Source: Pseudomonadota bacterium
GTDB taxonomy: Bacteria; Pseudomonadota; Gammaproteobacteria; Nitrosococcales; Methylophagaceae
Direction of reading: 5' to 3'
Length of the DNA: 64,000 nt
Assembly: GCA_030576275.1 (NCBI GenBank)
Contig: JALIBN010000032.1
Span: forward strand, 1-64,000
The translations under genes were made by a program, and so were the position numbers. Shown piece after piece: positions 1,763 through 3,498 of this stretch. Numbering within the stretch: position 1 is the first letter of the stretch; the number at the start of each line of letters is the position of its first letter. The notes under the pieces are model-generated. The model was given only the letters and a program-made list of their open reading frames with translations, did no database searches and was not told the DNA's origin.

Positions 1763-1959
1763 GATTATCTCCATTTAAAATTTAATTTTGGCGGCATAAT
1801 ATCATAAACCCTTATTTATAGATGACATCTAGCCACTTATGATTGTGAAATCCTTTCACTCCTTGCATCTATTTAGTATGAAAGTGTAAACGAAGATATA
1901 GGCAAAATAACTAACAAATGCTATCGTTTGATATGATTCACATTAGAAGAGATAATATT

Positions 1960-2067
1960 ATGTTGGCAAAATTAGAAGATATGATCGTAGTAAACTTTAG
2001 TGGAGTTGTTTTTGCATTCGCCATTTTCTGGCTAGGTTTAATAGCATACGGCTTATTCAATCAATAA
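1960..2067 (+). CDS. 35-residue single-pass membrane protein, paralogue A
   Basis: This short frame encodes an N-terminal 'MLAKLED' segment, one hydrophobic helix from about residue 13 to 31 with a central Trp, and a short polar tail. A purine-rich AGAAGAGA stretch lies about 8 nt before the ATG. It aligns without gaps over 32 residues to the product at 2226-2330, with 13 identities including KLE, NF, the Trp and the AYG motif. Two independent frames encoding such similar peptides argue strongly for real genes. Function is unknown; size and topology resemble the tiny accessory subunits of respiratory oxidases, but I recognise no family. Confidence 0.7.
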   Translation: MLAKLEDMIVVNFSGVVFAFAIFWLGLIAYGLFNQ

Positions 2068-2079
2068 ATAATTTCAAAC

Positions 2080-2120
2080 ACCCATAAAAAACCAGTCTCT
2101 ATGACTGGTTTTTTATGGGT
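2080..2120. terminator. strong bidirectional hairpin terminator
   Basis: Perfect 18-bp arms (2080-2097 and 2103-2120) surround the 5-nt loop TCTAT. The core is A6-CCAGTC and GACTGG-T6, the form of a bidirectional intrinsic terminator. It closes transcription of the first tiny gene and so separates it from the second, which must have its own promoter. Confidence 0.85.
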
Positions 2121-2147
2121 GAAGATAAAGTTCTATCTGCGCATATA

Positions 2148-2189
2148 TTGATCCATATCAATGATTAACACCGTAAAACCAGTGATAAT
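2148..2189 (+). promoter_or_regulatory. FNR-type (class II) promoter
   Basis: TTGATCCATATCAA at 2148-2161 matches the FNR/ANR consensus TTGAT-N4-ATCAA perfectly. A -10 element GATAAT lies at 2184-2189. The predicted start near 2196 puts the centre of the FNR box about 41.5 bp upstream, which is the classic class II activation position. The gene served is the tiny membrane protein with its ATG at 2226. Both the site and its spacing are seen directly; activation under low oxygen is inferred. Confidence 0.7.
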
Positions 2190-2225
2190 TTACTCATAGT
2201 ATTTTTTATATTTACGGAGTGTGTC

Positions 2226-2330
2226 ATGCATAAATTAGAACAAATTGTTATTGAAAATTTCACGTTAATTATCTTTTTATTTGCTCTATCATGGATTTGT
2301 TTAGTTGCTTATGGAGTTATCAAGTCTTAA
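2226..2330 (+). CDS. 34-residue single-pass membrane protein, paralogue B
   Basis: The product has an amphipathic start 'MHKLEQIVIENF', one hydrophobic helix of about 18 residues containing Trp, and ends 'VAYGVIKS'. GGAG at 2216-2219 lies 6 nt before the ATG, a good ribosome-binding site. It is a diverged copy of the peptide encoded at 1960-2067, with the same spacing of KLE, NF, F-x-FA, W and AYG. The two genes are in tandem but insulated by a terminator, and this copy is preceded by an FNR-type box, which suggests induction when oxygen is low. Function is unknown; a small stabilising subunit of a membrane redox complex is one guess. Confidence 0.75.
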   Translation: MHKLEQIVIENFTLIIFLFALSWICLVAYGVIKS

Positions 2331-2379: not shown

Positions 2380-3498
2380 TCATACCAATCGTAGTTCAAA
2401 CTCAGCTGTTGCGTAACTCACGCCATTGATCAGTAACTCAACGAGGTGTGTTCCGGCATAATACTTACGAGTCGTTATTATTTTAAATGGATGGAGCTTG
2501 CTTAATGCGATCGTCTGTAGCCCATGTAGGGTAATATTTTTCCATTTAAAGACTTTACTTGTCATTGAACCATTGGCTTTGACATGATGAATTCTGTAAT
2601 CAATAACCAGTTTTTGAGTTTTAACTGATTCCGATCGTAATAATGTTTCTATTTCAAGATCGTTGCCTAGTAACACGCTGGACTCAATTAGCTTAAATAT
2701 TGGGGTTATCTGGGGATTTTTGCTATAGCCTAATAAAGCGAAAGCTTCGGAACACCCAGATTTCACCAAACTTCGCAAAGCATGACGAATTAGCCATTGC
2801 CGTTCTGCTGAAGCACCCACTGACCAAGATTGACACAAGCGAATCACCTTCGCAGGGTGATCTTTAGCAATATCATTCAGATTATTAGCGACAGACCTGC
2901 GAACATATAAGCTAGCATCATCTTTCAACTGTTCCAATATTGGAATGATTGGAGCGGGGTTATCACAAAACTGCGTTAACCTTTTACCCCAAGGTAATCG
3001 TGGGCGACTGCCCTCTGATGCTAATCGTCTTACATTTTCATCACTATCTCGAGCCCACATCAGAAGATGTTGATGTGTTAATACAAAGTGCTGAGTGATA
3101 AACGGACGAATGGCAAATTCAGCTGAGAATAACGGTGTCAGATTTTTTAATACATTTAATGCAATCTCTGGCTGATTTAATCCATACAATGATACATAAT
3201 CAACTAATGGCCAAGCGGTAAAATGACCCCAACTATTAGCAGACGATAGTTCAGGCAAATGGTGTTTTACAGATATTAAGACATCGGCAGCATCAGCAAA
3301 ATCCGCGGGTAAATAATCAGCCAATACGACGATTAAATGGTCAACGCGCTGTTTAAGCTCTAATTCATTCAGCCCCACCAGTGCTTGTTTAATAAATTGC
3401 TGTTGAGGAAAATCAGTCAGGCACATTGCTAATGCCTGACTGATTTGCGATATGGCTTGTTCACCCAGCATATCTTTCATGAGTTTTTGTTCACTCAT
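2380..3498 (-). CDS. AlkC/AlkD-like HEAT-repeat DNA alkylation repair protein
   Basis: The 372-residue protein is built of alpha-helical HEAT-like repeats. It carries the segment 'ASEGSRPRLPWGKRL' (about residues 160-174), which I associate with AlkC-type DNA glycosylase relatives, followed by 'LKDDASLYVRRSVANNLND', a typical HEAT repeat of this superfamily. Such proteins bind DNA carrying N3- or N7-alkylpurines and excise the base. The extra C-terminal ~90 residues look beta-rich and are less familiar. The gene follows rlmD by 14 bp and is probably cotranscribed with it; TAAGGAG lies 10 nt before the ATG. The family call is fairly firm, the substrate is not. Confidence 0.75.
   Translation of the reverse strand: MSEQKLMKDMLGEQAISQISQALAMCLTDFPQQQFIKQALVGLNELELKQRVDHLIVVLADYLPADFADAADVLISVKHHLPELSSANSWGHFTAWPLVDYVSLYGLNQPEIALNVLKNLTPLFSAEFAIRPFITQHFVLTHQHLLMWARDSDENVRRLASEGSRPRLPWGKRLTQFCDNPAPIIPILEQLKDDASLYVRRSVANNLNDIAKDHPAKVIRLCQSWSVGASAERQWLIRHALRSLVKSGCSEAFALLGYSKNPQITPIFKLIESSVLLGNDLEIETLLRSESVKTQKLVIDYRIHHVKANGSMTSKVFKWKNITLHGLQTIALSKLHPFKIITTRKYYAGTHLVELLINGVSYATAEFELRLV

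Follow-up and report, generated by a model that had tools for sequence, protein, structure and literature searches.

The window, a stretch of 64,000 nucleotides, forms the start of contig C32, from a genome (G000) of 2.37 Mb whose relatives are Methylophaga and further Methylophagaceae, a family with marine methanol-eating members. Its first positions (1-560) represent an AT-rich contig start without an evident gene. Two small genes, here called twin A and twin B, lie in tandem on the forward strand, each with orthologues across the family. Twin A (1960-2067) encodes a 35-amino-acid single-helix membrane protein, MLAKLEDMIVVNFSGVVFAFAIFWLGLIAYGLFNQ, and twin B (2226-2330) a 34-amino-acid one, MHKLEQIVIENFTLIIFLFALSWICLVAYGVIKS. 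Direct reading places a ribosome-binding site before each frame, namely AGAAGAG at 1945-1951 (+) for twin A, with an AGAGAG-type sequence at the equivalent place in most g1 relatives, and ACGGAG at 2214-2219 (+) for twin B, with GAGG or GGAG at the equivalent place in relatives. The two proteins align without gaps over 13 identities, as the initial annotation of this DNA had stated, and find each other in tblastn cross-matches with E-values of 4e-6 and 7e-6. Between the genes, at 2079-2121, there is a bidirectional hairpin terminator with a 19-bp perfect stem (-31.7 kcal/mol, z -8.9), which A and T runs flank on both sides. A 372-amino-acid HEAT-repeat protein is encoded on the reverse strand at 2380-3498, with a weak Pfam HEAT match just below the curated cut-off; in the majority of family members, this protein is a conserved neighbour of the twins or of rlmD.

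That the two frames are genes had been proposed from the letters of the locus, and the comparison with related genomes bears this out. Profile searches found at least one twin in 44 of 57 Methylophagaceae genomes, covering all four genera, the raw count of 46 having been reduced by the rejection of weak matches in G008 and G018. Both twins are present in 38 of these genomes, usually in tandem, while 4 carry only A and 2 only B; among high-quality family genomes, 31 of 36 have at least one twin. The comparison of synonymous and nonsynonymous substitutions suggested by the initial annotation gave, pooled across close pairs, a pN/pS of 0.20 for twin A and 0.19 for twin B, which indicates purifying selection. 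Outside the family, the twins were not found: a class sample of 369 genomes gave real matches only in its four family members and none in the other 365, so that, as far as this sample goes, the twins appear confined to Methylophagaceae. Weak matches outside the family (partial, E 7e-4 to 0.006) and matches within long frames were treated as chance. Searches of Pfam, NCBIfam, PHROGs and the PDB sequences gave no match for either protein. It is near certain that both twins are real genes of a conserved Methylophagaceae microprotein family that lacks annotation.

In a tree of 78 twin copies, which is weak as the sequences are short, 38 of the 40 A copies form one group with a support of 98/94. 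The exceptions are the A-position copies of G019 (L043:160-261) and G027 (L067:5362-5463), which carry B-like sequence behind an A-type promoter. This looks like gene conversion between the twins, which would suggest that the two proteins are interchangeable to some degree.

The control of twin B has been reconstructed in detail. A predicted FNR box, TTGATCCATATCAA, is found at 2148-2161 and is followed, 22 nt past the box, by the -10 hexamer GATAAT (2184-2189, +); transcription is predicted to start at about 2196, from which the centre of the box is at -41.5. The exact pattern TTGATN4ATCAA occurs at 25 sites in the genome versus 6 for a reversed control pattern, so the box by itself is not decisive and it is conservation that settles the matter. 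Indeed, in 37 of 40 twin-B loci an FNR box lies 73 to 94 nt before the ATG. Over these 37 loci, the match to a -10 element gives a sharp peak of 4.16 out of 6 at exactly 22 nt past the box and at most 2.92 at the other offsets between 14 and 39, thus fixing the centre of the box at -41.5, as in class II sites. The box and the spacing to GATAAT are as originally claimed. The three loci without a standard box are that of G019, where the contig stops short of the upstream DNA, that of G031, with a box farther out at -129, and that of G029, with the relic box TTAATCCGAATCAA. In the reduced 1.1 Mb genome of G029, this degenerate box coincides with a decayed fnr, a stop-riddled pseudogene beside hisB (L282, G029:C6:289745-290347), the same place at which G000 has an intact fnr. 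In G408, some 0.96 Mb separate twin B (L214, G408:C1:1386891) from twin A, and B retains its FNR box, at -84. The regulator is encoded on contig C12 of G000 by a protein that scores above the NF008365 cut-off and contains the CX2CX5C motif (CQECSLYRLC) and a further cysteine (SVCEL). The other FNR boxes of G000 are mostly intragenic or unrelated and share no common theme. As far as promoter architecture can tell, it is near certain that twin B belongs to the class II targets of FNR, predicted to be switched on at low oxygen.

Twin A appears to be controlled differently. Its promoter in the window is most likely the extended -10 element TGCTATCGT at 1919-1927 (+), a reading that corrects an earlier one. 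An element of the form TGnTAnnnT, also given as TGnTATnnT, precedes nearly every twin A of the family, with the variants TGCTATCTT, TGCTATATT and TGGTATCTT upstream of the gene in relatives. In three relatives (G017, G023, G007), the -10 is followed directly by a strong FNR box (PWM score 16.7-23.7) that covers the start site, which predicts repression of twin A by FNR and thus reciprocal control of the twins in these genomes. The equivalent place in the window (1928-1941) holds the weak FNR-like sequence TTGATATGATTCAC (PWM score 1.1, p 0.05); FNR repression of twin A is not claimed for G000, since the site is degenerate. In most genomes the promoter of twin A is apparently FNR-independent, and the protein would be made all the time. 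A hairpin of at least 10 bp is present in the A-B interval of 29 of 33 pairs, and together with the separate promoters it upholds the proposal that a terminator divides the twins and leaves each under its own control. The conserved terminator and the FNR promoter of twin B, kept even where the gene has been relocated (G408), indicate that this separate control is inherited. A new, family-restricted pair of membrane microproteins split by FNR is, computationally, well established.

Both twins can be described as single-helix membrane proteins, in agreement with the first reading of the locus. The peptides would have a mass of about 3.9-4.0 kDa, and the maximum 19-residue hydropathy is 2.22 for twin A and 2.63 for twin B. 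The AlphaFold2 model of twin B, based on 68 alignment rows, has a mean pLDDT of 92.7 and consists of an amphipathic helix (residues 2-10) and a single transmembrane helix (12-33), with a break at N11-F12. Lysine and arginine are found within the first 13 residues of the twins but hardly ever in the final 8, a bias that makes an N-in/C-out topology likely. The motifs KLE, NF, W and YG are conserved.

The gene neighbours of the twins vary by lineage and include tyrS, purC, ppsA, a SulP transporter, the HEAT-repeat protein and rlmD. Because they change in this way, no clue to function was obtained from them. The PEP synthase gene ppsA is a recurrent neighbour family-wide (L067, L071, L078, L080, L081, L082 and others), accompanied in some g3 genomes by a likely ppsR gene. 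In the family loci examined, there is no gene-neighbourhood link of the twins to cco genes.

A possible partner is suggested by the distribution of terminal oxidases, surveyed here as haem-copper types and cydA. The cbb3 gene ccoN is present in all 44 twin genomes, and the four family genomes without it (G009, G011, G018, G022) have no twin; the co-occurrence has a Fisher p of 0.002, uncorrected for phylogeny and dependent on few, possibly related, cbb3-negative genomes. Three of these four, G011, G018 and G022, have an aa3-type oxidase only and no true FNR. Among genomes of high completeness, ccoN occurs without twins in G008, G407 and G412. In G008 and G412, which have both ccoN and FNR, a contig breaks off inside the ppsA region, beside which the twins are expected, or shortly ahead of it, so their absence there is unproven, and the assembly of G407 is split into 350 contigs. 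In seven twin genomes (G014, G029, G033, G408, G409, G419, G422), cbb3 is the sole haem-copper oxidase and cydA is absent, and six of these have both twins. Thus, should the twins work with a terminal oxidase, both would serve cbb3 rather than one oxidase each. A division in which A serves aa3 and B serves cbb3 was rejected, as six genomes keep both twins although no oxidase other than cbb3 was found in them. Nor can cytochrome bd be the general partner, since cydA is missing from G000, G014, G015, G027, G029, G408 and other twin genomes; the presence of cydA is uncorrelated with that of the twins. The ccoN operon has its own FNR box in five of the genomes examined (G004, G027, G031, G032, G034), and the ccoN of the window's own genome has no recognisable one. 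G000 already encodes a canonical CcoQ (L238:5488-5724), the twins being on another contig. Small single-helix subunits beyond CcoQ, or in place of it, differ among the cbb3 enzymes of bacteria (PMC8267372), and one of them is CcoM (PMC10433244), a homologue of which was not found in the family members searched. That the twins are small subunits of cbb3 may be regarded as the best single guess, held at somewhat less than even odds on circumstantial evidence from genomes.

The initial annotation had proposed an oxygen-regulated pair of alternative small subunits for a respiratory membrane complex. The genes, their own promoters, the FNR class II site and the single helices all stand, and it is for the respiratory partner that the co-occurrence with the oxidase is suggestive. 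The reading preferred here, to which a probability of roughly 0.45 may be assigned, is that of an oxygen-switched pair of accessory membrane subunits, A basal and B for low oxygen, most likely on cbb3. Two paralogous single-pass microproteins of one Methylophagaceae family would be encoded at the locus, twin A being transcribed from its FNR-independent extended -10 promoter. Upon a fall in oxygen, the oxygen-sensing FNR would activate twin B in vivo from the class II site. In each protein, a short amphipathic helix would lie along the surface of the membrane and a single helix would cross it, with the N-terminus probably inside. Both proteins would most likely dock onto a large enzyme of the membrane as accessory subunits that stabilize or tune it. 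The likeliest such enzyme would be the cbb3 cytochrome c oxidase, on which A could serve as the basal form and be exchanged for B, the low-oxygen form. The strongest version, namely that paralogous small subunits are exchanged with oxygen on this one terminal oxidase, the FNR-induced B supplementing or replacing A and so retuning the enzyme, is rather doubtful.

The twins may instead be accessory or regulatory microproteins of a non-oxidase membrane complex whose action is required or adjusted when oxygen is scarce, which would be why FNR induces B; a transporter, a quinone-reducing dehydrogenase and a signalling protein are examples. Among known single-helix microproteins, regulators of transporters and kinases are no rarer than those of oxidases, and the twins have no genomic linkage to cco genes. 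FNR, too, is missing from three of the four genomes without cbb3, so the correlation with ccoN could mirror a low-oxygen lifestyle instead of a tie to cbb3. However, G029 has lost FNR and yet retains cbb3 and one twin, so that the twin goes with cbb3 more closely than with FNR. A non-oxidase partner is the next most likely possibility, and an appreciable one.

It is improbable that the twins are free-standing, YohP-like membrane peptides of low oxygen or stress, which would modulate the state of the membrane without a dedicated partner complex. They are small and single-helix, as this would require, and one report (PMC12719787) describes small stress-induced membrane proteins as acting on metabolism. 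Their orthology is nevertheless one-to-one family-wide, and the promoter of A is not oxygen-responsive in most genomes. In addition, the conserved motifs, together with this orthology and a pN/pS of 0.2 over the helix, point to sequence-specific contacts. Less probable still is a tandem type I toxin pair, that is, short hydrophobic peptides silenced by antisense RNA. Loci of the ibs/ldr type do resemble the twins in size, single helix and tandem duplication, but the opposite strand has only weak matches to promoter consensus, within shuffle expectation, with no convincing antisense promoter or RNA. Moreover, the twins show stable single-copy orthology in four genera instead of sporadic clusters, one copy is under FNR class II control, and none was found on plasmids. 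The notion of chance frames, non-genes behind a fortuitous FNR box, could draw on the roughly 25 exact consensus sites in the genome, some of them intragenic, but it is refuted by purifying selection and the conserved architecture.

The subunit reading of the twins can be set against several known systems. The 36-amino-acid single-helix CcoM of the Pseudomonas stutzeri cbb3 oxidase (PDB 5djq chain N) is like the twins in its size, its single helix and its respiratory host with ANR/FNR. CcoM is also encoded away from the cco operon, as the twins are. Twin profiles searched against PDB chains at E up to 10 gave no match, 5djq_N included, and a CcoM query finds no twin, so that homology was rejected for want of sequence similarity either way. 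Furthermore, CcoM has a basic C-terminus (RDAHKKS) whereas the charges of the twins are N-terminal, suggesting an opposite topology, and CcoM is single while the twins form a predicted oxygen-switched pair. CcoQ and the Epsilonproteobacterial CcoX (DUF4006) resemble them as small single-helix cbb3 subunits or assembly factors; however, these are encoded within the cco operon, and the twins are not between ccoO and ccoP. CydX, CbdX (AppX) and CydH (YnhF) of cytochrome bd are likewise tiny single-helix subunits of a low-oxygen terminal oxidase, but the twins match no Pfam or NCBIfam model, and G000 and many other twin genomes are without cydA.

Tiny oxidase subunits usually come to light through an unexplained helix in a structure; here a pair of them would be predictable from comparative regulation alone, in culturable methylotrophs. 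For one of these, M. nitratireducenticrescens, transcriptomes with and without oxygen have been published (PMC11526790). The cbb3-only genomes that keep both twins offer a clean test of whether small subunits are swapped with oxygen on one respiratory enzyme. The closest conceptual analogues are eukaryotic: yeast COX5a/COX5b and mammalian COX4-1/COX4-2 are aerobic and hypoxic isoforms of one oxidase subunit, and their exchange on one complex is established. As is proposed for the twins, they are paralogous small subunits under opposite oxygen control, although they share no homology with them and, for the twins, we only infer the exchange. If true, subunit exchange on cbb3 would give bacteria an equivalent of the COX5a/COX5b switch of yeast.
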